DNA of 64,000 nt from an uncultured Pseudomonadota bacterium. GTDB taxonomy: Bacteria > Bdellovibrionota_B > Oligoflexia > Oligoflexales > CAIYRB01. Position 1 is the stretch's first letter, and each line of letters begins with the position of its first letter. The position numbers were made by a program, and so were the translations under genes. This document shows positions 501 through 11,967 of this stretch, piece after piece. The stretch covers positions 1 to 64,000 of the forward strand of contig CAIYRB010000145.1 in the NCBI GenBank assembly GCA_903928445.1. The letters are read 5' to 3'. Below the pieces are notes generated by a model, which saw only the letters and a list, made by a program, of their open reading frames with translations, did no database searches and had not been told where the DNA came from.

Positions 501-563
501 ATGGCGGAGAGAGTGGGATTCGAACCCACGTTAGGGATTAACCTAAACACGCTTTCCAAGCGT
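501..563. repeat. attL: 63-bp copy of the tRNA-Ser 3' part
   Basis: These 63 bases are identical to 11877-11939, which contain the 3' part of the tRNA-Ser gene from the anticodon region through CCA. The identity starts at ATGGCGG and stops abruptly at 563 (AACA follows, against GCGC at the right end). The 5' half of the tRNA is missing here, so this is a displaced 3' fragment, as left when a tyrosine integrase inserts DNA into a tRNA gene. It marks the left boundary of the island. Confidence 0.93.
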
Positions 564-678
564 AACAGTAGGTGTCGGTTAGACTGGCGATATCAGTGGT
601 TTACAATTTAAAACAGAAGGTTATGGCTCTGGCAGGTTTGCTCGTTTTTCGGGAGTTTTGCCGCTTCTTGCTGTGCTG

Positions 679-701
679 TGTTCACAAAATGTTCACAAGG
701 C
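679..701 (+). promoter_or_regulatory. Putative left arm-type integrase/excisionase site
   Basis: Two direct copies of TGTTCACA separated by AAA and followed by AGGC. The same 23-bp arrangement occurs at 11800-11822, differing only in the 3-base spacer (TTC there). The two copies lie 115 bases inside attL and 54 bases inside attR, in the same orientation, so in a circular molecule they would flank the 63-bp core. This is the layout expected of arm-type binding sites of a tyrosine integrase or its excisionase; the binding role is inferred. Confidence 0.6.
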
Positions 702-742
702 AACTTGAAGCCAGCTTGGCGGACCCCGCTGCTTTCCTGGTT

Positions 743-1012
743 GCTGACCTAGGCCGCGCTGGATTGGTGGCTGCCATAGAGCTCGGCATCACCTTTCACA
801 GCCCAGGCATACCTTTGCCTCAGAATTTATGAGGGCCGGCGGCACCATTTACAAGCTGCAGCAGTTCCTTGGCCCACTCAACGGCCAACCAGACTGACCA
901 GTATGCCCGCTTTGCGCCGGAGCTCGTGGCTGGAGCAACGGACCAAGTAAGCTTCACTGCACCCTCGGGAGGGGTCTTAGCTATGGCCCCTGAGGTTCGT
1001 GCCAAGTCGTGA
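743..1012 (+). pseudogene. Remnant of a second tyrosine recombinase, C-terminal part, frameshifted
   Basis: Reading through two frame changes gives the tail of a phage-type integrase. ITFHSP (788-805) stands for the usual TFHDLRHT; RHTFASEFMRAGGTIYKLQQ (about 811-870) and FLGHS follow. After a single extra C near 877 the frame continues as QYARFAPELVAGATDQVSF and stops at 1010-1012. The catalytic HxxR region, the LGHS histidine and the QYARF tyrosine are recognisable, but the frame is broken near 806 and near 877, and everything upstream of about 743 is lost. It differs from the intact integrase at 10683, so it records a different, older element. Confidence 0.75.
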
Positions 1013-1343
1013 TCCGCCCGAAAAGCCGCCCGATTGGGCGCTTAGGAGCTGCAAGTTACTGATAAACAGAGAGGAAGGCTGGTGGAGCGGCGGGAATCGA
1101 ATTTGAGATGCCAGACCCCAAAAAACATCAGTTGTGCCAGTTTTTAACAATCAGATCGAAAGCTTAGCCACCGCAATCCTGCACCCCTCGGTTGCCCCGG
1201 ATACCCCTAAATACCTCTAGGTGCTGTTCCACCAAAGTTCCCTCGCCTGCGGCCGCTCGGCAGGCAAAAGCGCTAGGGGGGAGGCTTGGCGTCAGTTAAC
1301 GGCAGCGACTGCTAGCGATAAGTGCTCACAGAGCTACTCGGCT
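1013..1343. other. Gene-free stretch with a tRNA/tmRNA-like 3' end at 1080-1101
   Basis: No convincing gene. At 1080-1101 the reverse strand reads TTCGATT-CCCGC-CGCTCC-A-CCA: T-loop, 3' half of T-stem, acceptor strand and CCA, as at the end of a tRNA or tmRNA. The opposite T-stem strand and the rest of a tRNA cannot be folded around it. It lies about 70 bases beyond the stop of the degraded integrase at 743-1012, where an attachment site would be expected, so I read it as a possible relic att site. The remaining sequence up to 1343 shows nothing I recognise. Confidence 0.35.
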
Positions 1344-1823
1344 CTATCCGTCTCCCAAGAGGGGGGCGTCATTCCGAGCGACAGATATTGTAACGGGTAC
1401 TTCTGGGACAGCTTGAGCAGGCCAATATTTAGGCCCTTTATCGCGCGCAATCGCAGCGAGCTTGGACCCTTTATTTTGCGTTTGACCGTTGGATAGGTTC
1501 CTGAAATCAACGACAGCGTGGGCCGGGTTGGATGGGAGCGGATTGGAGTAACTATCAAGACCAACTCCACTCGCCTCCCCGACAGTTACACCGTAAATAC
1601 CGGCTGATCTCAAGTTTAGCCCTGTAGTGAATAACTCAAAAGAAGCTTCCGCCGTAGTGAGGCTGCTTTGATCCACGGACAGCAAACTCAGATCTTTTCT
1701 AGTCGGTGTAAAAGCCTGACCGCTAACCCTTCCTTCTTGGATGAAGTTCGGATTAATTTGGCGATAAAGATCTTCTCCCGCCACTAAAAGCTTGGGCCCA
1801 AGCCCCATATTATCAGTGCTCAT
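1344..1823 (-). CDS. Unknown protein, second gene of a two-gene cargo module
   Basis: 159 residues, no signal peptide or membrane segment. The ATG overlaps the end of the upstream gene by 11 bases, so the pair is co-transcribed and probably translationally coupled. Visible conserved-looking stretches are YRQINPNFIQEGRVSGQAF, a PTRKDLSLLSVD segment and AGIYGVTVGE...HAVVDF. I recall similar small proteins (INPxFIQxGRxSxQAFxPTxKDxxxLSV) as uncharacterised proteins in many bacteria, from memory only. No catalytic motif is evident. The last 30 or so residues look less conserved. Its place at the edge of a satellite-like island, behind an oppositely reading replication block, suggests cargo such as defence or toxin-antitoxin, which is inference. 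Confidence 0.75.
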   Translation of the reverse strand: MSTDNMGLGPKLLVAGEDLYRQINPNFIQEGRVSGQAFTPTRKDLSLLSVDQSSLTTAEASFELFTTGLNLRSAGIYGVTVGEASGVGLDSYSNPLPSNPAHAVVDFRNLSNGQTQNKGSKLAAIARDKGPKYWPAQAVPEVPVTISVARNDAPLLGDG

Positions 1824-2964
1824 TACTACCCGGCGGATTCAAAAACTGTGTTAAAAACTCGATCACACCATTAACCAGGATCGGAACATCGCCTGAACAA
1901 GTATCTTCCATATACTTATCACTGGTTGTCTCAGACGCTCTGAGAAGAATTCGCTGTGCTTCCACATCGAACTGAGCCGCAACTTCCCAAGCGCCAATAG
2001 ACCATTCTGCTTGCAGTCCACCTTCAGTCGTCGGATAGATAAAGGGAGATGGCATGTTATTTTTGGTAACCAGCGATCGCAAAACTTCCCTGCTCCAACT
2101 TATCGCACCAGGAGAAACTGCCTGTCCCTCGTCACCATCAAGCCATCCAGCTTCCAGTCGCTGCAATTCGTCAAGCCGACTCTCAAACGGTGGGAGATCA
2201 GTGCTTAAGTTTTCCTCGTATATCGTCATGTGCTGAAGCTTTATAGGCCCTTCTATTTCTCCACTAACCGTATACTTGCCTATTCCAATTAACTTTACAT
2301 CAATATTTTCGTGGCTAAGAAGCGCTCTGCGTATCCCCAAGTTGAAGGGTTGGTCAAAGTTTCCATAGACCGAGCTCTCATCATCGAGTTTTATGGTAAA
2401 TGTATGATCTAATACGTCAGCTGCACGAATCTTACCCGACAGTATGCAAACATCATATCGTGGCGTCTCACCTTTAAGAGTTAGCAGCTTCAACCTTACT
2501 TCGCGATCAAGCTTAGGACCGGATGTTTTACCGGGCGATATAAGCTCGATTGCTTCCCCTTCCCGCAAGCTTTTGCCAAAACGATTAAAATGCAACAGCA
2601 GCGCTTTTGGAAATCCTTGCGGTAATGCCGTCGATGCTATGACTGAGGAAACGAGTTCTCGCGCCTCATCATACTCGTCAGGTTGTTCGACTTTTAATAG
2701 TGCTGCCTCGGTATCTCTGTCTCGTTTAAAAACGGGTACAGCGCTACCATCTAACAGGCCGGTCATCACCAGATTGTAGCGGCCGCCAAAACCCTTTGGA
2801 ACCCTATCTTTACCGTGCTTGCCGCAGTAAATGATCTTAGCCAGCTCAGAAACAAGATGAGTATAGGCCAATAAATCCGTAAAAAACTCGACCGGCATCT
2901 TGCCGCCAGCAAAGCGTTTGCCCTCTAACTTGGGTCTAACAAACTCATCAGATTGGTCTGCCAT
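1813..2964 (-). CDS. Unknown protein, first gene of a two-gene cargo module
   Basis: 383 residues, soluble, beginning MADQSDEFVRPKLEGKRF. No family I can name. The C-terminal third (about residues 265-345) carries LQRLEAGWLDGDEGQAVS, a short spacer, then PFIYPTTEGGLQAEW and WEVAAQFD. This stretch looks like a discrete domain I remember from other uncharacterised proteins. The N-terminal part contains FFTDLLAYTHLV. The gene ends inside the start of the 159-residue partner (stop of one within GAGCACTGATAA, ATG of the other just before), which argues for a fixed stoichiometric pair. An XRE repressor lies 234 bases upstream on the same strand. Function unknown. Confidence 0.8.
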   Translation of the reverse strand: MADQSDEFVRPKLEGKRFAGGKMPVEFFTDLLAYTHLVSELAKIIYCGKHGKDRVPKGFGGRYNLVMTGLLDGSAVPVFKRDRDTEAALLKVEQPDEYDEARELVSSVIASTALPQGFPKALLLHFNRFGKSLREGEAIELISPGKTSGPKLDREVRLKLLTLKGETPRYDVCILSGKIRAADVLDHTFTIKLDDESSVYGNFDQPFNLGIRRALLSHENIDVKLIGIGKYTVSGEIEGPIKLQHMTIYEENLSTDLPPFESRLDELQRLEAGWLDGDEGQAVSPGAISWSREVLRSLVTKNNMPSPFIYPTTEGGLQAEWSIGAWEVAAQFDVEAQRILLRASETTSDKYMEDTCSGDVPILVNGVIEFLTQFLNPPGSNEH

Positions 2965-3045
2965 AATCGCCTATAATCAAATGCCGTAAAGGTCGCTATG
3001 CCTGAAATTAGCGGTTGCGGATTCTAACCTTATTTCTTTCAATAG

Positions 3046-3213
3046 AAAAGACAAAAGCGCAGTAGTTTAGCCGCTTACGGAGACCAGCAAGCCGCACTTG
3101 AGTCTAGCAAGTACGCCAATGAATGCGGTGTAATATTGGTCGCCTACGACCTAGACGTTCGCAAAGCACTCGAAATGGCAGATATCTTGAATATTTCATC
3201 AGGGCAGCATTGA
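3046..3213 (+). pseudogene. Gene fragment, possibly toprim-like C-terminus
   Basis: An open stretch without a usable start runs from the stop at 3043-3045 to TGA at 3211-3213. It encodes SSLAAYGDQQAALES, KYANECG, VILVAYDLDVRKALEMADIL and a short tail. The hydrophobic strand followed by YDLD and an amphipathic helix recalls the DxD strand of toprim domains (primases, topoisomerases, OLD nucleases). Only about 50 residues survive, so this is a weak assignment. The end overlaps the last bases of the XRE gene on the other strand. Likely a relic of a replaced gene. Confidence 0.3.
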
Positions 3214-3504
3214 TCGAAATGACTGCAGGACCTTGATCGCTTGATCCAGTGCTTCGGCAGCTTTCTTTGACTGCTTAGGCAGTCCTTTTGAGGGGTCCAT
3301 TGTTAGGTCCGCCACGGTAACGCCTAACGCCTCAGCAATGGTCTCTAGGCTTTCAATCGTCAGATTCTGAGGCTGGTTTTCTGCACGGGATATGAAGCGG
3401 ATACTAAGTCCAGATGCCTCGCTCAGTTTTTCCTGGGACAATCCGGCTTGCATCCGGGCAGCCCTGATATTTCTCGCTACCATGTCACGGATGGATGTCG
3501 CCAT
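3199..3504 (-). CDS. XRE-family transcriptional repressor
   Basis: 101 residues with a classic Cro/C1-type helix-turn-helix over residues 8-67: IRAARMQAGLSQEKLSEASG, LSIRFISRAENQ and LTIESLETIAEALGV. The C-terminal 30 residues are a lysine- and leucine-rich helix that probably dimerises. The start is supported by AGAGGGGG upstream. It is read leftwards, toward the two-gene module, and diverges from the lipoprotein gene at 3745. A perfect palindrome in the shared upstream region (3584-3607) is the likely operator. In a satellite-like island it would be the candidate master repressor; alternatively it only controls the neighbouring module. Confidence 0.85.
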   Translation of the reverse strand: MATSIRDMVARNIRAARMQAGLSQEKLSEASGLSIRFISRAENQPQNLTIESLETIAEALGVTVADLTMDPSKGLPKQSKKAAEALDQAIKVLQSFRSMLP

Positions 3505-3583
3505 AGAAGACCCCCTCTGAGCCCTAAAAGTCTATTAGATTGCTTGGGGTTGCGTTAGACGACACGAATGACATGGTCTATTT

Positions 3584-3607
3584 CATATAGGACTATCGAC
3601 CTATATG
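3584..3607. promoter_or_regulatory. Palindromic operator candidate upstream of the XRE gene
   Basis: Perfect inverted repeat CATATAGG (3584-3591), 8-base spacer ACTATCGA, CCTATATG (3600-3607). It sits between the divergent XRE gene (start 3504) and the lipoprotein gene (start 3745). Two half-sites with an 8-base centre are typical of sites bound by a homodimeric helix-turn-helix repressor. Confidence 0.55.
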
Positions 3608-3744
3608 ACTCATTGGTAGACATGTATGCTAAAGTTTGGCTGCGGCTGACCGATGGCTACGCTAGTGCATATTTCTGGCCATCCACGAAACGTGGGGCCG
3701 AAAGATCCAAATTCCAACACTAGTTCGGCGGGAGGGGTACTGAT

Positions 3745-5049
3745 ATGAACCTGGTATGGCTGCTAATTGCGGGACTGTCCGTGCATGGCTGTGGTTCTCC
3801 GAAGTCCAAAGACAAGTCGGATCCGACTACGACGGGACCCGATTCTGGGACTGATGGCGTGACGAGCCCTAGCGATATAACAGCCGCGGGCATAACAGCG
3901 CTGGCCCCCAAAAAACTTGCTAATGAACAGGATGCTTTGCAGTCCTTGATTTCTTGGAGCTATAAGAATTGGGAAGCGCCTACCCCGAGCCAGACTTGCA
4001 TTAGGAGCAAGATCAAATTCGGTCCTGCGGGTTCTGACGGCTTTTCGTCGTCAGAAGACAAGGCCATCGATGCAAGCGATTGCTTCACCTCGGCAGACTT
4101 CGGCGGCGGACAGTTTAAGTTTTCCACCTACTTAATTGCAAAAGAGAAACTGATCATTAACGACGTGCCAATCGATCTATCGGGAAAATCACTAGCGGAC
4201 AAAGTAGCTTTACTAGCTGCTGACGATGTTAAGTCGTACACAGATGAGTTTTTTCAGCAGGGTCGTATCGTCGTATCCACCACGATTAACTCAGTATCAA
4301 CAAAATTGGAAAATCGACTCCTACGAGAGAATGGGCCTGGCGGGACATGCAAGATTAGCAAGGAGAAGGATGGTAAGCAGAAAAGCGGCCCATGTCGTAA
4401 TTATCAGGTATCAATACTGACCGACTCAACAAAAGCGCAGACAGTGGACGGGTTCGCCATTACCGATGGATCTACCCCATTAGAAGCCGATGGATTTAAA
4501 TCTCCTTGGTTCAACTCAGGGTCTTCCACTACGGTGACAATCAATAATTGGAAGGCCGCGATTACCTTTTTAGGTGCTGATATCGCTCCTAAAGTCACTT
4601 TGACCAGCGACACCGGCCAAAAGGTCGTGGGGCTCTCTATCTTTGGCAAATCGATGTTCGTGACAGACGAGTTATATAGCCTTAGCTGCAATATTAATTA
4701 TTTAGATTTCCTCGTGCGAAAGGAAAACACCACCTGCAAAGCAATCACGCACAAAGAGGACTTTAGCGGGGGCGGCTCGACCTGGAAGATAGCTTCCCCA
4801 GACGGGGCCGTGGCCATCAGCGCAGTCAATCCAACCAGCAGCCAAAAGCTAAAGATCGACGGCACCGATTATTTTTGCATGTTGTACTCAGGTAGCGGCA
4901 GCGTATTTGATTCGGCTGGTAAGCAGCAATGGTCACCCTCTCACTTAATAATCAGCAAGTCGGCCGCGACTAAACCTAGCGATCTAAAAACGGATGATGT
5001 CTTGTTAATTGCGACCAGCAGCCAGGATGTATGCCACGGCATCTATTGA
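3745..5049 (+). CDS. Predicted secreted lipoprotein, unknown
   Basis: 434 residues. The start has a strong ribosome site (GGGAGGGG) 7 bases upstream. A short signal sequence with a hydrophobic core ends in LSVHGCG, a somewhat atypical lipobox with the lipidated cysteine near residue 16. A low-complexity Ser/Thr/Asp-rich linker follows (SKDKSDPTTTGPDSGTDG). The mature part has at least six further cysteines, which fits an exported disulfide-containing protein. No family recognised. The gene stands alone in the middle of the island between two gene-poor stretches, so it is cargo (a moron-like gene) rather than replication machinery. A surface change such as phage exclusion is possible but unsupported by motif. 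Confidence 0.8.
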   Translation: MNLVWLLIAGLSVHGCGSPKSKDKSDPTTTGPDSGTDGVTSPSDITAAGITALAPKKLANEQDALQSLISWSYKNWEAPTPSQTCIRSKIKFGPAGSDGFSSSEDKAIDASDCFTSADFGGGQFKFSTYLIAKEKLIINDVPIDLSGKSLADKVALLAADDVKSYTDEFFQQGRIVVSTTINSVSTKLENRLLRENGPGGTCKISKEKDGKQKSGPCRNYQVSILTDSTKAQTVDGFAITDGSTPLEADGFKSPWFNSGSSTTVTINNWKAAITFLGADIAPKVTLTSDTGQKVVGLSIFGKSMFVTDELYSLSCNINYLDFLVRKENTTCKAITHKEDFSGGGSTWKIASPDGAVAISAVNPTSSQKLKIDGTDYFCMLYSGSGSVFDSAGKQQWSPSHLIISKSAATKPSDLKTDDVLLIATSSQDVCHGIY

Positions 5050-5367
5050 CCTCCTCAATGACCTCGGGTGCGCGCTTGGCCAATCAAGAACCCTTCAAGC
5101 AGACTCATGGAGCCTGCCTGCCAAGGGGCAGCTGAGTCTGAATCTCGGGAAGTAATCATACCTTTACCCCCGCGTTAGACTGGAATTCCTGTGCGCAAAT
5201 GGGCGCGTCACTGATGCCTCCCGGTGCCATTTGTAGAGAAGCATCGGAGCGAGATTGCACACGCAAATGTCTCGCCAGCCTCGTAGGGAGCATGGCATCC
5301 TAATTACGGATCACTTAGGCGAATAAAGGATCAGCCTAATGCCTTTAATGTCGTAGGGAGTTTGGCC
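5050..5367. other. Gene-free intergenic with repeated motifs
   Basis: About 320 bases before the terminase-like gene. TCGTAGGGAG occurs twice (5281-5290 and 5351-5360); the second copy supplies the ribosome site of the next gene. TTAGGC (5315-5320) and GCCTAA (5334-5339) form an inverted repeat around a 13-base centre, a possible operator. No gene seen. Confidence 0.4.
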
Positions 5368-6066
5368 ATGAGCGACGACACCAATGCGCCTCCCATTCGG
5401 AGGTATGGAAGGCCACGCAAGCCGGGGCGCCCTGGATATGACTGGGACGCCCTTTATATTGGTTGGCTGCACAGCGGAATGGACAAGAACGCCTTCTTAA
5501 AGGCACGTGGAGTAGCTTTTCGAGGCGGATCGGCATTGAAACACACAGCCCGGTGGATACGGGACCTTAATTTTGACCAATACCAAACGTTGATTGCCAA
5601 CCAAGGGGCAGAACTGAGAGAACCAACAAGTCCCGAGAAGCATGAGCCAATTCACGAGGCGCACCACTCGGAGGTCGATGATGCTTGCTGCTGGCAGCAG
5701 GTTATGGCCCGACGCTCTAGCCAAGGCATCAGCGATTGGCAGTCTGCTGACTCTGTTCGAACCCACATAGAGCTGATCTTGGAACAGGGTATGTCATGTC
5801 GGATTTGCGAGGATGGACAGGTCGGATTGAGCACTACACTTACCCCTCAAGAATTGCGCCAGCTTGCCAAGGCGCTGAGTGATGTCCAGCGGGTCCAGCG
5901 TATGGCCTTAGGACTAACGTCGGATGACGTAGGGAAAATCCCTCAAGGGGAGTGCCTCAGCGAGCCCCCTCAGGCTGTAGACGGCGAACATCGAAAGAAT
6001 ATGTTCATCGTGGAGCTCTCGCGTTCAGGGCGATTTATCCATGCGCGACCTAGAAGAGTTATCTGA
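5368..6066 (+). CDS. DNA-binding protein, possibly terminase small-subunit-like
   Basis: 232 residues from the ATG at 5368, chosen because GGGAG sits 7 bases upstream; a TTG two codons earlier is possible. The N-terminus has two GRP cores (RRYGRPRKPGRPGYDW) like AT-hooks. A predicted helix-turn-helix follows: WDALYIGWLHSGMDKNAF, LKARGV, then ALKHTARWIRDL. A later segment reads LTPQELRQLAKALSDVQRV-QRMALGL. The YDW...W layout with a late helical ALxxxQ segment resembles phage terminase small subunits and related DNA-binding proteins. In a satellite such a protein could redirect helper-phage packaging. The family call rests on remembered patterns; a site-specific regulator is an alternative. Confidence 0.7.
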   Translation: MSDDTNAPPIRRYGRPRKPGRPGYDWDALYIGWLHSGMDKNAFLKARGVAFRGGSALKHTARWIRDLNFDQYQTLIANQGAELREPTSPEKHEPIHEAHHSEVDDACCWQQVMARRSSQGISDWQSADSVRTHIELILEQGMSCRICEDGQVGLSTTLTPQELRQLAKALSDVQRVQRMALGLTSDDVGKIPQGECLSEPPQAVDGEHRKNMFIVELSRSGRFIHARPRRVI

Positions 6067-6236
6067 CGATGCAGCTTGGCTGTCATGACTGAGACTCAAC
6101 GATAGCGAGGACAATTCGTGCACATATTACCTGATTTTTCCTGAGTCGGTACTACCTACCTGCATGTGTATTCGAGGTGGAAAAGGGCAAGAATGGCCGT
6201 CTTGTTGTGGCCCGTTTCAGGGGAGCCTCTTAATGT

Positions 6237-7580
6237 CTATTCCTTGAGATTCGGGTGAATCAATATCTGTTGGATCGTACGCTCAGGCACACCTGCGCTC
6301 GACAGATCGGCTAGGTATTTCTTCGCCGCCCTTTGATGCCCGCTGCGAACTAGATCCCCAAATTTTACTTGCCTACTGTAGAGAAGCTCCAAGCGATCAA
6401 GGTCGTGCATCGTGAGATGATCTGTCACATCGTTTTTAGTTTGAAGCATTGTGGGTGGAGAGTTGCTAGTTTTAGACCTGTTTAAATCTTCTGAAGTGGC
6501 CATAATCACGCGACTTTGCGACTTGGATGCCGCTAAAGACACAATTTGTGCAAAGCAGTAGGCTAATCTCGTGCGGGCTACATTGATACTCACAAGCGCT
6601 TTAGATTTTGTGGCGCGTGTAGCAAGGGTCGCTGCGCGAATACTTAGCTCACTCTTGATATCATCGACGATAGCTCGCAACGGCATCCAAGCGGGATCCC
6701 CTACAAGGAGCTCTAACTCTATCGACCCTAGCCAATCAATGAGGTCGTAGCGGTGGACATTTTCAGATCGGGGGCGTCCAGGCTTCGCGCGACTAATGGC
6801 CTTAGGAGGCCAAATTGTTAAAGGTAATACATCTTCAAAGGCCTTGTTTGTTTCGATCCAGAATTGTCCAGTTCTAAACGAACGCGTTTCTAAAGGTGGG
6901 CAATAGTGCCCGTCTTCAGCCCCTCCTGCTCCGTATTGACCATAGCAATAGATATCTGAAATTGCTCGCGGAGACAGCCAGGCTACCTTGGATGCACGTC
7001 GGGCAATGTCTAAAATCCGAATCAGTCGCCTCTGCACGACTGCCTCGCTGATCAAAAAAAACGCACAATGTCGATTGATTCGTTCAATGTTTCGAATCTC
7101 TTTGCGTTTGATTCTGGCTATCGTGACCCATTCGGGATTTTCATATCCCAAATTAGCTTTGACTAAACATCCGAATAACCAGTTCAATAGCCACAAGCGA
7201 GCATGGCCATCACGTGTGGTGCGTTCGGGCAAGTTAGCTGCGAGCCACATCTGATAATGCTGGTGGGGAAGCGGTCGGTAGCTCTTTCTGAAGGTTAAAC
7301 CCGCGAGCTTCATCAGGATGCTTACAGAGTTCATCACATTGGAACCAGACGCTTCTTCTAACTGATCTAGTAGAGCCCCGGCCTCCTGCTGCAGAAAGAT
7401 GAGATTGTGCCCACTTCCACCGGATACTAGCGTGGACTCCAGATCGTCAGTTAATGGGAACACTTTCCGTGCGAGCAAACGTCCCCACGACAGAATGACC
7501 TCCCTTCGTTCGTCGTCTGTTTCGAGCTCTTGCCCCCTAAGCACTACAAACAAGGGGTCTATGTAATCATCTGTTATCAC
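6237..7580 (-). CDS. Unknown island protein
   Basis: 447 residues from a GTG at 7580. It is basic and mostly helical, without signal peptide, membrane segment or known catalytic motif. Visible features are an arginine/lysine-rich central part (IARIKRKEIRNIERINRHC), an AKPGRPR AT-hook-like core near residue 270, and a C-terminal segment YSRQVKFGDLVRSGHQ..AAKKYLADLSSAGVPERTIQQIL that could be a helix-turn-helix. It is the only long leftward gene in the right half of the island and diverges from the replication block starting at 7691. I do not recognise the family. A DNA-binding regulator or partition-like role is possible but speculative. Confidence 0.75.
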   Translation of the reverse strand: MITDDYIDPLFVVLRGQELETDDERREVILSWGRLLARKVFPLTDDLESTLVSGGSGHNLIFLQQEAGALLDQLEEASGSNVMNSVSILMKLAGLTFRKSYRPLPHQHYQMWLAANLPERTTRDGHARLWLLNWLFGCLVKANLGYENPEWVTIARIKRKEIRNIERINRHCAFFLISEAVVQRRLIRILDIARRASKVAWLSPRAISDIYCYGQYGAGGAEDGHYCPPLETRSFRTGQFWIETNKAFEDVLPLTIWPPKAISRAKPGRPRSENVHRYDLIDWLGSIELELLVGDPAWMPLRAIVDDIKSELSIRAATLATRATKSKALVSINVARTRLAYCFAQIVSLAASKSQSRVIMATSEDLNRSKTSNSPPTMLQTKNDVTDHLTMHDLDRLELLYSRQVKFGDLVRSGHQRAAKKYLADLSSAGVPERTIQQILIHPNLKE

Positions 7581-7690
7581 TATTGAATGCCTGAAAAGTC
7601 GCGCTATTGCTATTCGTAACCATTAGTCCGATTTGTCGGGTAGTGTGGCTCAAGTGTCTCACAATTGCCTCAATTAAAGGAGTAATGGCT

Positions 7691-7912
7691 ATGAATTCAG
7701 GATTGAATCCTCATGCGAAGCTTGACGATGAGCGGCGACCAGAGTGCCCCCTCTTTCTCGATGTCAAAGCGTTTGCCGCCGCAAGTGGATTGCCTACTGG
7801 GATGGTCGACCGTTTGTTAAGGCAGGGTCGGTTGGAATACAAGGCGGAAGGTAGATTGCGCCTAATCCCCCGCTCCGAATTGGCACGGCTGTCGGGGGTC
7901 ATCGGGCGATGA
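7691..7912 (+). CDS. Small helix-turn-helix protein, excisionase-like
   Basis: 73 residues. The ATG at 7691 is preferred because AAAGGAG (7676-7682) is 8 bases upstream; the ATG at 7685 would be too close. The protein is essentially one winged-helix unit: LFLDVKAFAAASGLPTGMV-DRLLRQGRLEY..EGRLRLIPRSELARL, like MerR/excisionase-type domains. Its stop overlaps the next start as ATGA, tying it to the SF3 helicase. It is probably a regulator of the replication operon or a recombination directionality factor. It differs from the AlpA-like protein at 10346. Confidence 0.75.
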   Translation: MNSGLNPHAKLDDERRPECPLFLDVKAFAAASGLPTGMVDRLLRQGRLEYKAEGRLRLIPRSELARLSGVIGR

Positions 7913-9270
7913 AACATACGACCAAATATGATGACAGGCGATATGACAGCTCAGCAAACTCGGCGAAGTTAAAATTGCCAGATATATACAGTCTGACTGC
8001 TGATATCATTTGCGGGCTGCCTATCGCAGCTGGCTATCCACCTTTTCCAGAACGTTATCGCGTAGTCGCGGATAGCTATGGAAGGCGGCGGCTGCTTATT
8101 GAGTCCAATGGCGGCGTCGTTCGATACGTGGATGACGTGGCGCTAGTGAATGCGATCCTTAATTATTGGCGTGATCAGCTCGTTCCGCTAAATCCCCGCT
8201 TTAACTTAGTACATCGCAATGCTGTCGAGGCAGCGAAGTATGCCTTCGAAGTTTTGAGGCCACTGACTGGTGAGCCTCCTCTGATCGCATTCAAGTCGGC
8301 GGAGGGCCTGACATTCTACCGGCTACCTTTTGATCCAATTCGTAGTGCTCCTTTAGATGTCTGCCCCGGTTTCAAAGAAATTGGCGATAGAATGTCTAAC
8401 TTCCCGGCATTCTGTATGCGAGTAGCCTCATTGTTTGATCCTTACGCTGATCGTAAGCAGGCCGTGTACGTACATGGACCAAAGGATTCGGGTAAGAGCC
8501 AGCTACAGGCTATACTAGCCTTTTTGGCGGGTGGATCAGGCGTACACTCCAGTGCCTATTGTGTTCTGGGATCCGCTGAGTTGAACTCTCCGTTTTGGAA
8601 ATCTGCTTTGGTTGGGAAGCGACTATTGGTGCTTCCCGAAGCTTCTCCAAATTTCCTGCCTACCTCGGAGTTCAAATCGTTAACCGGTGATGGACTACAT
8701 GCGATTAACCAAAAGAATAGACCCATTTTCATGGCCATGCTCCCTGTGCTTGTCTTTCTCTTTTCAAACGGCAAGCCTCTGACTCGTGGAGACAGTGCGG
8801 TCATCGAACGGATAATTGATTGTGAAATCCGTCCTTTTCAGCGGTCAAGGATGATACCCGAACGGGAATATCAGGAGCAGCTGCGCCGCGAACTTCCAGC
8901 ATTCATAGGTTACTGTCTCGAGCTATATGCGCCTTATTGCGGGGGACGGCGATTGCCTTGTGACTTGCGAAATATAAACGCGGGCGGCGATGACTTAAGC
9001 GAAGAGGCTGTCTCGTTTTTTGAGGAGCACCTGAGTGTTGATAAGGTGTCGACAATCATGCGTGATGATTTTTACGAAATGGTCCGCGACCTGGCGCCGC
9101 ACTGTTCTACAAAGAAGTATCGACTATGGATCAAAATCTGGAAGAAAAAATTTGGGCTGGGAACAACTCGTCCGAGTGCGTGCGAGTCTAGAAATGGATC
9201 CAGTAAGCGACCGACATATATAACTGGGGTTCGATTTAGAAAGGCAATCGATTCTAATCCAGTCGCTTAG
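7909..9270 (+). CDS. SF3-type replicative helicase (P4/D5-like ATPase)
   Basis: 453 residues, overlapping the upstream gene by 4 bases. Walker A is GPKDSGKS at residues 190-197. A Walker B-like strand KRLLVLPEAS follows about 50 residues later, then LTGDGLHAINQKNR and PVLVFLFSNGKPL, typical of the superfamily 3 motif B'/C region (sensor Asn in FSNG), and an arginine-finger region AVIERIIDCEI. C-terminal part resembles the winged-helix tail of plasmid/phage primase-helicases. It should unwind the island origin as a hexamer and work with the primase encoded next (9402). The 131-base gap behind it changes from GC-rich to AT-rich and could hold the origin. Confidence 0.85.
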   Translation: MKHTTKYDDRRYDSSANSAKLKLPDIYSLTADIICGLPIAAGYPPFPERYRVVADSYGRRRLLIESNGGVVRYVDDVALVNAILNYWRDQLVPLNPRFNLVHRNAVEAAKYAFEVLRPLTGEPPLIAFKSAEGLTFYRLPFDPIRSAPLDVCPGFKEIGDRMSNFPAFCMRVASLFDPYADRKQAVYVHGPKDSGKSQLQAILAFLAGGSGVHSSAYCVLGSAELNSPFWKSALVGKRLLVLPEASPNFLPTSEFKSLTGDGLHAINQKNRPIFMAMLPVLVFLFSNGKPLTRGDSAVIERIIDCEIRPFQRSRMIPEREYQEQLRRELPAFIGYCLELYAPYCGGRRLPCDLRNINAGGDDLSEEAVSFFEEHLSVDKVSTIMRDDFYEMVRDLAPHCSTKKYRLWIKIWKKKFGLGTTRPSACESRNGSSKRPTYITGVRFRKAIDSNPVA

Positions 9271-9401
9271 TAACTTCGGTCAGGACCCTTCCCGCTGAAG
9301 TCGGGGGATAAAGCCCGCGGAACTCACCGGCGCTGTAGGTCGGTCAAGGGGTCAGGCTTAAGTGCTTACTTTCAGAGTAAATTAAAATGGGAGAAATATA
9401 A

Positions 9402-10343
9402 ATGGAGTACAATGTCTGTTCTCCTGTCGACCGGTCGCGACAGTATGTCAAGTTTACGAGATTGCCAGGATTTTCTGACACGGTGGGGAATGACATTGCG
9501 GTCCCAGACACAATACCTAGCCGACCCGATCAAAAGCCGGCTGTCTTGCTAAGTCGGTCTGATAGTTCGAGCCTAAATCCCAGAGTTCATTGCCAATTCT
9601 CCGTCATAAATTGCGGAAGGTTCAGGGATATCAGCAAAGTAGTTACTACTGCATGTTGGAGCCCGATCATCTGGGTTCAAGGCTATAGGCGGACAGATGA
9701 TTTCCAGATGTGCATGCTTATGGTGCTCGACTTCGATGGCCCGGGTTATTCCATAGAGGCATGCATCGAAGATTTTTGGGGCGTTCGGCATATTATCGGG
9801 ACCACCAAGTCGCACGGGCAGATCAAGAATGGTGTAATATGCGATCGATATCGCCTCATCGTGCCCTTTTCACGTCCCATCCTGTCGCTGGCCGAGTATC
9901 TAAGCAACATCAAACGCGCTGTTAAATCCTTGCCTGCCGACCAATCTTGCACTGATGGTGGTCGGTTCTTCTTTCCCTGCATTGATATTGTATCTGTCAA
10001 TGATGTTGGCATTGACTATCAAGTCGTTGAATGTCCAGTTGATGCCAGTGCGCTAGTTAAATCTGAGGTTCAATGCCGACGCAGCGGCAATCAGAGCGGG
10101 TCTTGGGGCATACTGCCTCCTTGGGATTGCGCGCTATTGCGGCAGCCGATTCTCGCGGGTCAGCGCAATTGCACGTGCTTCCATCTAGGCTTGACGCTCA
10201 CGCGTCACGGTTTTGATGAAGCGGCTGTCATGCGGATTGTCCGCTCGACCGACATCAAAATTGATGGCGACTTCACTGAAGCGGAGCTAATTCGTGCGAC
10301 CCAATCAGGAATTGCGTGGGCTCATCGCAATCGGCGGAGTTGA
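9402..10343 (+). CDS. Archaeo-eukaryotic-type primase (PrimPol-like)
   Basis: 313 residues, with GGGAGA upstream of the ATG. The core is MVLDFDGPGYS (metal-binding DxD, residues 110-112), then VRHIIGTTKSHGQ, where H130 and the SHG stretch match the sxH motif of AEP primases, and CDRYRLIVPFSRPI. These are the signature pieces of small primases in plasmids and phage satellites. It lacks its own helicase; the SF3 ATPase at 7909 supplies that, so the pair replaces the usual fused P4 alpha protein. The N-terminal 90 residues and the C-terminal part (about 225-313) are not assigned. The AlpA-like gene follows after 2 bases. Confidence 0.8.
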   Translation: MEYNVCSPVDRSRQYVKFTRLPGFSDTVGNDIAVPDTIPSRPDQKPAVLLSRSDSSSLNPRVHCQFSVINCGRFRDISKVVTTACWSPIIWVQGYRRTDDFQMCMLMVLDFDGPGYSIEACIEDFWGVRHIIGTTKSHGQIKNGVICDRYRLIVPFSRPILSLAEYLSNIKRAVKSLPADQSCTDGGRFFFPCIDIVSVNDVGIDYQVVECPVDASALVKSEVQCRRSGNQSGSWGILPPWDCALLRQPILAGQRNCTCFHLGLTLTRHGFDEAAVMRIVRSTDIKIDGDFTEAELIRATQSGIAWAHRNRRS

Positions 10344-10345
10344 AG

Positions 10346-10696
10346 ATGACTACCCCCATTTCGCAAGCACCATTGGGGACTACGATGGAGCGCTACCTTG
10401 ACGTGCTTGGTGCTGCCGATCTCTTATTGGTATCAAAAGCGACCATATATGGGTGGGTCCACGAGCGTCGCATTCCATACCGTAAGCATGGAGGGAGGCT
10501 GGTTTTTTGGCAGCCTGACCTACTGAAATGGAGCAAGTCTCAAGAAGTTCGTCCAGTTGCTGGGGCCTCCTGGCCTACCATGGCTGGCGATGGTATAGAG
10601 TCGTTGCGCCGCAAGGCGTCCAGCTCTTTGAAAACCGAACAAACCAAGTCGAAGCCGCAACCTCCAGGTGGGAGGTCTAGGAATGGCAATTATTAA
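10346..10696 (+). CDS. AlpA/excisionase-type DNA-binding protein
   Basis: 116 residues from the ATG at 10346, which lies 2 bases after the primase stop with GGAG 6 bases upstream. A HTH_17-type winged helix spans about residues 15-70: YLDVLGAADLLLVSKATIYG, WVHERRIPYRKHGGRLVFW, PDLLKWSKSQ. The tail is Ser/Lys/Pro-rich. Proteins of this type act as excisionases or transcriptional activators of integrase (AlpA in cryptic prophages, Xis in P4-like elements). The gene overlaps the integrase start by 14 bases, so the pair is likely a single regulatory unit. Confidence 0.82.
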   Translation: MTTPISQAPLGTTMERYLDVLGAADLLLVSKATIYGWVHERRIPYRKHGGRLVFWQPDLLKWSKSQEVRPVAGASWPTMAGDGIESLRRKASSSLKTEQTKSKPQPPGGRSRNGNY

Positions 10697-11792
10697 TAGG
10701 AAATCCAGGGCGGGCACGACAAGTTACATCGTGCGGGTCCGGGATTACAACGGACGCTGGTTTCCAGCGACCACCTACGACCGGCGGGTGGATGCCGAGC
10801 GGCGGGAACGTGAGCTACTGTCGCTAAGGGACACGGGTAGTACAGCGACTCCCAACGAGCTTAGGGCGTTGACCGTCCAGCAGTTTGTTGAGAAGTGGAG
10901 TTTGGAACGACGGGCAAATGTGTCAGGCGGTTGGAAGGTGACCCAGGACCAGATGATCCGTGCCTATATTCTGCCAACACTGGGCGGGATGAAATTGCTC
11001 GATGTAAAGCATTCGAAGATCGGTGCGGTTCTCAATGCCATGGAAGCGGCCAAGCTTGGCGCACAGACAAGGCTGCATGTGTTCAACTTGATGCACCGGA
11101 TTTTCGGCGATGCGCTGGGATACTACCATCTCATTAGTTCAAATCCCGTGACGATGCGGGACAAGCCGGCGGTGATCCGGGTCGAGCAGAAGCACTTAAA
11201 GCCAACAGAGGCGAAAACGCTACTCGGGGGTAGCCGGGATCGCTATATCGGGCCAGCAATTTGGCTCGCGACGCTCGGAGCGTTGCGCCCTAACGAGGTT
11301 CAAGCACTTCGGTTCGATGCCATCGACTTCGAGCGCAACGTGATCGAGATTCGTGCCGGGTTCAAGCGCAAGGTGAACCGGTTAGAGCCTTACCCCAAGG
11401 GGAAACGTAAAGGCGAGGTCCCGATGCCTCAGCCTCTGCGGGAGCTGCTGGTCGAGCTGAGTATTGGCAAAGACCCAGGTGATTTTGTCATACCGGGTGT
11501 CCGGGGCGAGATCCTCAGTTACGGGACCTTCCTTAGTCACCTGACAGCGATCCTGGCGGAGTTAAAACTTCCGCTAGTGACGCCGCATAAGCTACGGCAC
11601 TCGGCGACAGAGCTGTGGATCGAGCAGGGTGCCACCGAAGAGGATCTCATCCGCCTCCTGAACCATTCGGGGGCGGGAGCGATCCGCGGGTACATCCATC
11701 GGTCATCGGAACGCCTGCACGCCCTGGCGTCTAAGATTGATATCGTGGCGCCAAAGGTCGTCGAGCGTCCTAGGCTCATGGTCGTCCGCTGA
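10683..11792 (+). CDS. Tyrosine recombinase (island integrase)
   Basis: 369 residues from the ATG at 10683, with GGGAGG 7 bases upstream. An N-terminal arm-binding region is followed by a SAM-like core-binding domain (about 65-160, TVQQFVEKWSLERR) and the catalytic domain. Catalytic residues: Arg in LGALRPNEVQALR (R202), HKLRH (H302, R305), LLNHSG (H328) and the nucleophile in RGYIH (Y337). A lysine lies in the YPKGKRKGE hairpin. It ends 85 bases before the tRNA-Ser repeat, the usual position for a tRNA-specific integrase. It should integrate and, with an excisionase, excise the 501-11939 element. Confidence 0.95.
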   Translation: MAIINRKSRAGTTSYIVRVRDYNGRWFPATTYDRRVDAERRERELLSLRDTGSTATPNELRALTVQQFVEKWSLERRANVSGGWKVTQDQMIRAYILPTLGGMKLLDVKHSKIGAVLNAMEAAKLGAQTRLHVFNLMHRIFGDALGYYHLISSNPVTMRDKPAVIRVEQKHLKPTEAKTLLGGSRDRYIGPAIWLATLGALRPNEVQALRFDAIDFERNVIEIRAGFKRKVNRLEPYPKGKRKGEVPMPQPLRELLVELSIGKDPGDFVIPGVRGEILSYGTFLSHLTAILAELKLPLVTPHKLRHSATELWIEQGATEEDLIRLLNHSGAGAIRGYIHRSSERLHALASKIDIVAPKVVERPRLMVVR

Positions 11793-11799
11793 ACAGTCA

Positions 11800-11822
11800 T
11801 GTTCACATTCTGTTCACAAGGC
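11800..11822 (+). promoter_or_regulatory. Putative right arm-type integrase/excisionase site
   Basis: TGTTCACA, spacer TTC, TGTTCACAAGGC: the partner of 679-701, in the same orientation, 8 bases after the integrase stop and 54 bases before the core repeat. Apart from the 3-base spacer the two 23-mers are identical, and nothing else at the two ends apart from the att core is shared to this degree. Confidence 0.6.
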
Positions 11823-11876
11823 GTGTGTTAGAGCTTTTTTCCATGTGTACCGGAAGCCTTCTAAGCCTCGGATATC

Positions 11877-11939
11877 ATGGCGGAGAGAGTGGGATTCGAA
11901 CCCACGTTAGGGATTAACCTAAACACGCTTTCCAAGCGT
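11877..11939. repeat. attR: 63-bp core repeat within intact tRNA-Ser
   Basis: Identical to 501-563. Here the repeat continues into the 5' half of the tRNA, so the gene stays functional after integration. The element must therefore carry the 3' end of the tRNA within its own attachment site. Crossover is expected inside this stretch, probably near the anticodon stem. Confidence 0.93.
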
Positions 11940-11967
11940 GCGCCTTCAGCCACTCGGCCATCTCTCC
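11878..11967 (-). tRNA. tRNA-Ser(GGA)
   Basis: On the reverse strand: acceptor 5' strand GGAGAGA, D-arm TGGCCGAGTGGCTGAAGGC, anticodon arm CACGCTTGGAAAGCGTG with anticodon GGA, a long variable arm (TTTAGGTTAATCCCTAA region), T-arm GTGGGTTCGAATCCCAC, acceptor 3' strand TCTCTCC, then G and an encoded CCA. Ninety bases with CCA, with the long variable arm expected of serine tRNA. It is the integration target of the island; its 3' part is repeated at 501-563. Confidence 0.95.

Follow-up and report, generated by a model that had tools for sequence, protein, structure and literature searches.

An 11.4-kb mobile island in a serine tRNA gene of an uncultured Oligoflexales bacterium, a plausible but unproven phage satellite

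General features of the element

The first 64,000 nucleotides of contig CAIYRB010000145.1 (assembly GCA_903928445.1, an uncultured member of the Oligoflexales), referred to below as the window, contain at positions 501–11939 a real mobile island of 11.4 kb lying within a serine tRNA gene (Table 1). The DNA itself all but demonstrates integration at the tRNA. Excision, replication and control are predicted from gene families, and the label of phage satellite is plausible but unproven. On balance we think it probable that this is an excisable, replicating, non-conjugative and helper-dependent island at tRNA-Ser(GGA), probably mobilised by a phage; nothing so far demonstrates travel in phage particles.

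The element is complete, bounded and accompanied by an empty-site control, in a lineage where our literature searches showed no satellite. These searches were limited (phage satellites in Bdellovibrio and Bdellovibrionota, prophages in Oligoflexia, tycheposons) and brought up no such element, so we do not claim that such elements are unreported. The element also places a phage-defence candidate of two genes on a small mobile island. From it comes a simple sequence rule for locating the ends of its relatives: next to the 3′ end of the tRNA stands an 8-bp repeat with a period of 11 bp. If phage transfer were demonstrated, satellites would be extended to another bacterial branch.

Table 1. Features of the island and its target, in window positions
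Feature	Position	Strand	Evidence
Displaced att core (3′ part of tRNA-Ser(GGA) + 1 bp)	501..563		Exact 63-nt direct repeat; empty site in G001
Putative distal arm-type site pair, TGTTCACA twice at 11-bp period	679..697	+	Repeat search
PDC-M32B, small protein of two-gene phage-defence candidate	1344..1823	-	PADLOC E 6.5e-37; PHROG 31579 E 2.5e-20
PDC-M32A, large protein, overlaps PDC-M32B	1813..2964	-	PADLOC E 8.9e-76; PHROG 30544 E 1.9e-27
XRE/Cro-type HTH regulator	3199..3504	-	PF01381 E 2.8e-13
Lipoprotein-like protein	3745..5049	+	Lipobox-like start read by eye
Orphan 234-aa protein, HTH-like start	5362..6066 (start may be 5368)	+	No PHROG at E up to 10
Orphan 447-aa protein	6237..7580	-	No family in Pfam, PHROG, NCBIfam, PADLOC
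Small HTH_17-like protein	7607..7912	+	PF12728 E 3.5e-4, under cut-off
SF3/D5-type helicase (DUF5906), Walker A-like GPKDSGKS	7909..9270	+	PF19263 30.2 bits (cut-off 27.6)
AEP-type primase, PriCT-1 C-terminus	9402..10343	+	PF08708 E 3e-4, 20.8 bits, just under cut-off 21.1; PHROG 2135 E 1.6e-6
AlpA/excisionase-type HTH, overlaps integrase gene	10316..10696 (start may be 10346)	+	PF12728 32.3 bits (cut-off 27)
Tyrosine integrase	10683..11792 (listed ORF start 10668)	+	PF00589 E 1.7e-14
Putative integrase-proximal arm-type site pair, TGTTCACA twice at 11-bp period	11800..11818	+	Repeat search
att core within intact tRNA-Ser gene	11877..11939		ARAGORN; exact repeat; empty site in G001
Intact tRNA-Ser(GGA), integration target	11878..11967	-	ARAGORN; Rfam RF00005
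HTH, helix-turn-helix; aa, amino acids; SF3, superfamily 3; AEP, archaeo-eukaryotic primase; ORF, open reading frame.

Integration site

The direct repeats that bound the element are identical at 63 of 63 positions. The only complete tRNA that ARAGORN found in the window is the tRNA-Ser(GGA), which Rfam also scores as a tRNA (61.5 bits at 11881–11967), and the repeat covers this tRNA from the anticodon arm (position 29) to one base beyond its 3′ end. The full gene stands at the integrase end and the displaced 3′ copy at the integrase-distal end. In a genome of the same genus, G001, the right flank is 91% identical over an alignment of 3.9 kb and the 63-bp core is identical, with no insert; to the left of the core 25 of the closest 30 bp match, with 18 matches in the first 20 and 9 in the first 10, and further left the two sequences diverge. 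This empty site, together with the exact repeats, supports the complete tRNA-Ser-integrated element proposed in a preliminary description of this DNA, which had named a search of relatives for such a site as a check. The marks of a tRNA-integrating tyrosine-recombinase island are all present: tRNA-derived direct repeats, an adjacent integrase with conserved residues, and an empty site in a relative. The G+C content of the element (0.511, versus 0.559 for 11940–64000) lies under that of all 82 same-size sliding windows of 11940–64000 (range 0.529–0.586).

The short left flank is the weak point of the empty-site comparison. It is only 500 bp long, the window starting at base 1 of its contig, and positions 294–470 (about 177 bp) are without match, with recurrent sequence from there to the contig edge. 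Parts of 1–293, which is perhaps an IS607-like element, recur elsewhere in the same genome and in G001, and a gene for a MerR-type HTH protein starts there. An assembly artefact, with two tRNA copies misjoined, would find its support in this flank; we consider it very improbable, since the last 30 bp of the flank do match the empty site to the extent given above, and the integrase fits a single element together with the arm sites and cores at its two ends.

Within the stretches fetched from the other four genomes of the genus, alignment was limited to the tRNA neighbourhood, and queries with the integrase, primase, helicase and 447-aa protein gave no match in those genomes; a single weak match to the integrase lies at another place in G001 (24%, E 6.9e-4). 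Next to the empty site of G001 (L028:1017-2098) an XRE gene is followed by a RES-type gene, both names being our own reading, and these are probably a toxin–antitoxin pair. Inside the element, a 22-mer at 1080–1101 resembles a tRNA 3′ end with CCA on the minus strand, with no other copy among the fetched loci, and the 780 bp at 564–1343, from the distal core to PDC-M32B, are without a convincing gene.

Integrase and putative arm-type sites

The adjacent integrase, AlpA-like protein and XRE regulator first named from the reading frames were borne out by family matches (PF00589, PF12728 and PF01381). Alignment with its relatives makes 10683, and not 10668, the probable start of the integrase. 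It is 38–41% identical to three related full-length integrases, which adjoin tRNA-Pro, tRNA-Arg and tRNA-Pro, and R207, H307, R310, H333 and Y342, which we take to be the catalytic residues, are invariant. A fourth relative lies in pieces in locus L081. Matches at E up to 0.001 were present in 17 of 56 genomes of the phylum, its own genome counted, and a search of viral contigs with the integrase alignment gave one weak locus (L102, 23%). An AlpA-like gene stands next to the integrase gene in all four loci that retain the integrase 5′ part (L077, L078, L079 and L081), each of them beside a tRNA or tRNA-derived repeat; none was seen beside the partial integrases of L080 and L085, in which the 5′ part is missing. 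L077–L079 stop 0.8–1.3 kb past the integrase gene, short of the element contents.

The 8-mer TGTTCACA has four plus-strand copies in the window, which make up exactly the two pairs near the att cores, and three minus-strand copies elsewhere. Such a period-11 pair was first spotted in the window and, on visual inspection, in L081, then scored with controls in five gaps between integrase gene and tRNA, and then in six further loci. Across the five gaps an 8-mer repeated at period 11 was exact in four and agreed in at least seven of eight letters in all five, while each of 26 other periods (4 to 30) gave no exact repeat and 0 to 2 of 5 at seven letters. In 2000 dinucleotide shuffles per locus, period 11 gave eight letters in 2 to 12 and seven letters in 30 to 187; for L081, the locus that reaches seven, the count was 81. 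The six further loci were exact in four cases and at least 7/8 in five (0 to 6 of 500 shuffles); L103 has four copies, hence period 22 too, and L106 fails at 6/8, with just one copy on visual inspection. The eleven loci are not independent, as L103–L106 come from one genome and are alike, and L080 and L079, which belong to that genome as well, have integrases 95% alike. Integrase matches outside this test are at most 31% identical, besides two parts of loci already used and a short piece at 47% (L106). The letters of the repeat vary among elements as position and spacing stay constant, which fits sites evolving alongside their integrase. With this layout repeated beside most of the related integrases tested, the paired repeats are probably integrase arm sites.

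In genome G007 several integrase 3′ ends occur (L080, L103, L104, L105 and L106), with arm-like tandem repeats after four of the five. All five loci hold a partial tRNA-Pro running from position 29–32 to 76, so that the partial cores again start in the anticodon arm; they look like island accretion at a single tRNA-Pro site.

At L081:424-19734 (genome G040, contig C124) lies a sister element, complete and about 19.3 kb long, with exact 23-bp repeats from 424 and 19712 that, by our own reading, appear to be a tRNA 3′ end. It carries an AlpA gene (PF12728), a Toprim-DUF3987 protein and metabolic-looking cargo, and it adjoins a Fis-family (PF02954) HTH gene. A 156-aa HTH protein of L081 gave 18 weak PHROG matches, among them two small-terminase families (E 0.028 and 0.034), with better matches to DNA-binding and uncharacterised families; it is unlike the 234-aa orphan of the window (BLASTP E 0.39).

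Replication genes

On the plus strand the genes run in the order small HTH protein, SF3 helicase, 131 bp, AEP primase, AlpA-like HTH and integrase. The first shares 4 nt (ATGA) with the start of the helicase gene, and the last three genes overlap or nearly abut, subject to the choice of start codons. The lipoprotein-like and 234-aa genes share this strand, and the 447-aa orphan, XRE regulator and PDC-M32 genes lie on the other.

Family searches agree with a separate AEP primase and SF3 helicase, as previously proposed, through moderate matches only. The helicase also matched TIGR01613 (E 2.6e-11, below that model's cut-off), and a three-sequence helicase profile matched the 'DNA primase' of PDB 7ola (E 9.1e-10). 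We take 7ola to be a protein of a Staphylococcus aureus pathogenicity island (SaPI), for which a literature search gave no confirmation. The primase is 30% identical to a PriCT-1 protein of the phage record MW202458.1 and retains a DxD-like motif and a TKSH segment common to both, presumably of catalytic meaning. No iteron array was seen near the replication genes, and no origin is named.

Among 50,697 phage records, the helicase and the primase each matched two at E<=1e-3 (the primase eight at E<=0.1), whereas neither matched any of 72,556 plasmid records at E<=1e-3. A helicase relative occurred in 15 of 137 pattern-matching viral stretches; the helicase alone and the primase alignment found no relative in viral contigs. 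The primase alignment gave one distant locus (L053) in genome contigs, the primase had no match in 55 other phylum genomes searched, and the helicase matched one of 57 (G044, 24%). In G044, a genome of the same class, part of a prophage encodes a helicase with 82% identity to the one of phage CP017838.1. The host given for this phage is Silvanigrella aquatica, which suggests, for the host of the island, a bacterium probably close to Oligoflexia in the NCBI taxonomy.

The separate primase and helicase of the siphophage MW202458.1 would also suit a shrunken prophage that had lost its structural genes, kept its integrase, replication genes and repressor, gained cargo and become immobile. We regard this as quite unlikely: there is no look of decay in the att repeats, which are exact, in the integrase, whose conserved residues are retained, in the overlapping genes or in the arm sites at the two ends, and phage structural remnants were not recognised in the ORFs scanned. 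Ten ORFs were scanned in each of Pfam, PHROG and NCBIfam, with the lipoprotein-like protein outside the Pfam scan and small ORFs unscanned.

Defence candidate, cargo and orphan proteins

The PDC-M32A/B pair at 1344–2964, missed in the preliminary description, comprises suspected anti-phage genes, named by PADLOC as a prediction. Genome G043 of the same class has another such pair (L075), with identities of 23% and 33%. Relatives of PDC-M32A occur on five plasmids, four of them typed mobilizable, and none was found in phages. In PMC12429752, PDC-M32 is termed a hypothetical defence system in a Sinorhizobium prophage set, and anti-phage defence is encoded by many satellites according to PMC11389934.

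The lipoprotein-like protein, a probable cargo, has weak partial matches in 6 other genomes out of 56 and in two PHROGs of unassigned function (E 0.009 and 0.022), and none in NCBIfam or PADLOC. The 447-aa protein has no match in 57 other phylum genomes, genome contigs or viral contigs, and phages gave E 4 or worse; the longest stop-free frame in 200 shuffles was 282.

A small-terminase-like product had been suggested for the 234-aa frame, a suggestion that finds no support in the family searches: no Pfam family at E up to 1, no PHROG, and an irrelevant NCBIfam model at E 0.053. Terminases diverge fast. The best tblastn matches of this protein were a minor tail protein in phages (E 0.4) and one at E 0.06 in other genomes, with no relative in viral contigs. 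Single-sequence AlphaFold2 models of the two orphans were unusable (mean pLDDT 38.7 for the 234-aa and 38.3 for the 447-aa protein).

Proposed mechanism and mode of transfer

In the mechanism that we propose, the integrase would bind, on either side, a tandem of 8-bp arm sites set roughly one turn of the helix apart and would recombine the tRNA 3′ part from the anticodon arm outward, the tRNA staying intact at the integrase end. The AlpA-like protein would be the excision factor, and the XRE protein, a candidate repressor, would keep the element silent. Once the island is excised, the SF3 helicase would open an origin, the separate AEP primase would prime, and host polymerase would replicate the DNA. 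Because transfer genes of its own are not recognised, the element would require a helper, most likely a phage, and the defence candidate may repay the host. Mobilisation by phage is suggested by the size, the int-alpA-prim set, the phage relatives of primase and helicase against none in plasmids, the helicase relatives in viral stretches and the defence cargo.

Several observations weigh against this reading. Among the ORFs scanned, genes for packaging, capsid size or helper control were not recognised. No helper phage was found: a PHROG 2 probe, positive in 13 of 14 controls, matched once in the element's own genome, by our reading a RecD2-like helicase, and being a single family it does not settle the lysogeny of the host. 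The relatives of helicase and primase are distant (23–30%). The sister element L081 has metabolic-looking cargo and no structural gene in the part scanned (six proteins in Pfam, four in PHROGs), so the integrase clade also serves plain islands. Finally, a relaxase or other function could hide in the two orphans.

A rival reading is a genomic island capable of excision and replication that a conjugative element mobilises in trans, by way of an origin of transfer or a relaxase not recognised here. In its favour are the lack of a recognised packaging gene, the orphans of 447 and 234 aa, a related element that is a larger cargo island, and the PDC-M32A relatives on plasmids, most of them typed mobilizable. 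We hold it possible but rather unlikely, in that the replication proteins have their relatives in phages and not in plasmids, and relaxase and type IV secretion system families, the marks of integrative mobilizable or conjugative elements, are missing from the matches of the ten ORFs per library. As first proposed, no structural or conjugative gene was recognised among the ORFs scanned; the same holds for terminase, capsid-hijack and relaxase genes.

Should the island be phage-mobilised, it might, as a doubtful extension, belong to a satellite family of Oligoflexia-type bacteria. Such a family would be built on an Int-AlpA clade whose arm sites, 11 bp apart, lie at tRNA genes for Ser, Pro and Arg. 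Its replication modules would be interchangeable, a split AEP primase and SF3 helicase in the present element and Toprim-DUF3987 in L081; its cargo would include PDC-M32, and it would hijack phages by a novel packaging protein, one of the two orphans.

Comparison with known systems

The P4-like or phage-inducible chromosomal island (PICI) satellite of the preliminary description stands in part: integrase, regulator, primase (just under its Pfam cut-off) and replication initiator are present, but no packaging or capsid-hijack gene was recognised and primase and helicase are unfused. Like PICIs and SaPIs, the element has an integrase at the att site, a regulator gene and a separate primase with a helicase-type initiator; unlike them, it has no recognised small terminase or packaging module, the 234-aa candidate being without PHROG match, and belongs to another lineage. 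P4-like satellites (PMC8628076) share the integrase and AlpA-like gene, whereas the fused primase-helicase of P4 alpha is replaced here by separate genes, and P4 Psu, Sid, delta and epsilon were not among the matches of the ORFs scanned. The split itself, once thought noteworthy, is not so, because SaPIs have initiators with helicase activity plus primases where P4 fuses both (PMC7145576), and MW202458.1 has separate genes too.

The phage-inducible chromosomal minimalist islands (PICMIs) of Vibrionaceae come close in gene content. In PMC10803314 the wider PICMI model makes int, alpA and prim mandatory, as co-located matches to PF00589 among others, PF05930 or PF12728, and PF13148 or PF19263. 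Here all three exceed the Pfam cut-offs (54.4, 32.3 and 30.2 bits against 27.1, 27 and 27.6), so that comparison with satellite models, proposed earlier, succeeds for the gene set and fails for the fis site, the target being tRNA-Ser(GGA). By gene families L081 would also be close to the model, its fragmented integrase lying outside the Pfam scan. PICMIs and the element share co-located int, AlpA (PF12728) and DUF5906-type genes, an accessory defence gene and the lack of recognised capsid-remodelling genes; they differ in size (about 6.7 kb on average versus 11.4 kb), in the separate AEP primase, in the absence of a known helper and in the host, presumably not one of the Vibrionaceae.

Siphoviridae sp. 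ctKpZ937 (MW202458.1) resembles the element in its separate PriCT-1 primase and SF3 helicase (23–27% identical for the latter), but is a 42-kb phage with an annotated capsid gene. The adjacent A and B genes agree with PADLOC PDC-M32, a predicted defence system that stands here on a small tRNA island.

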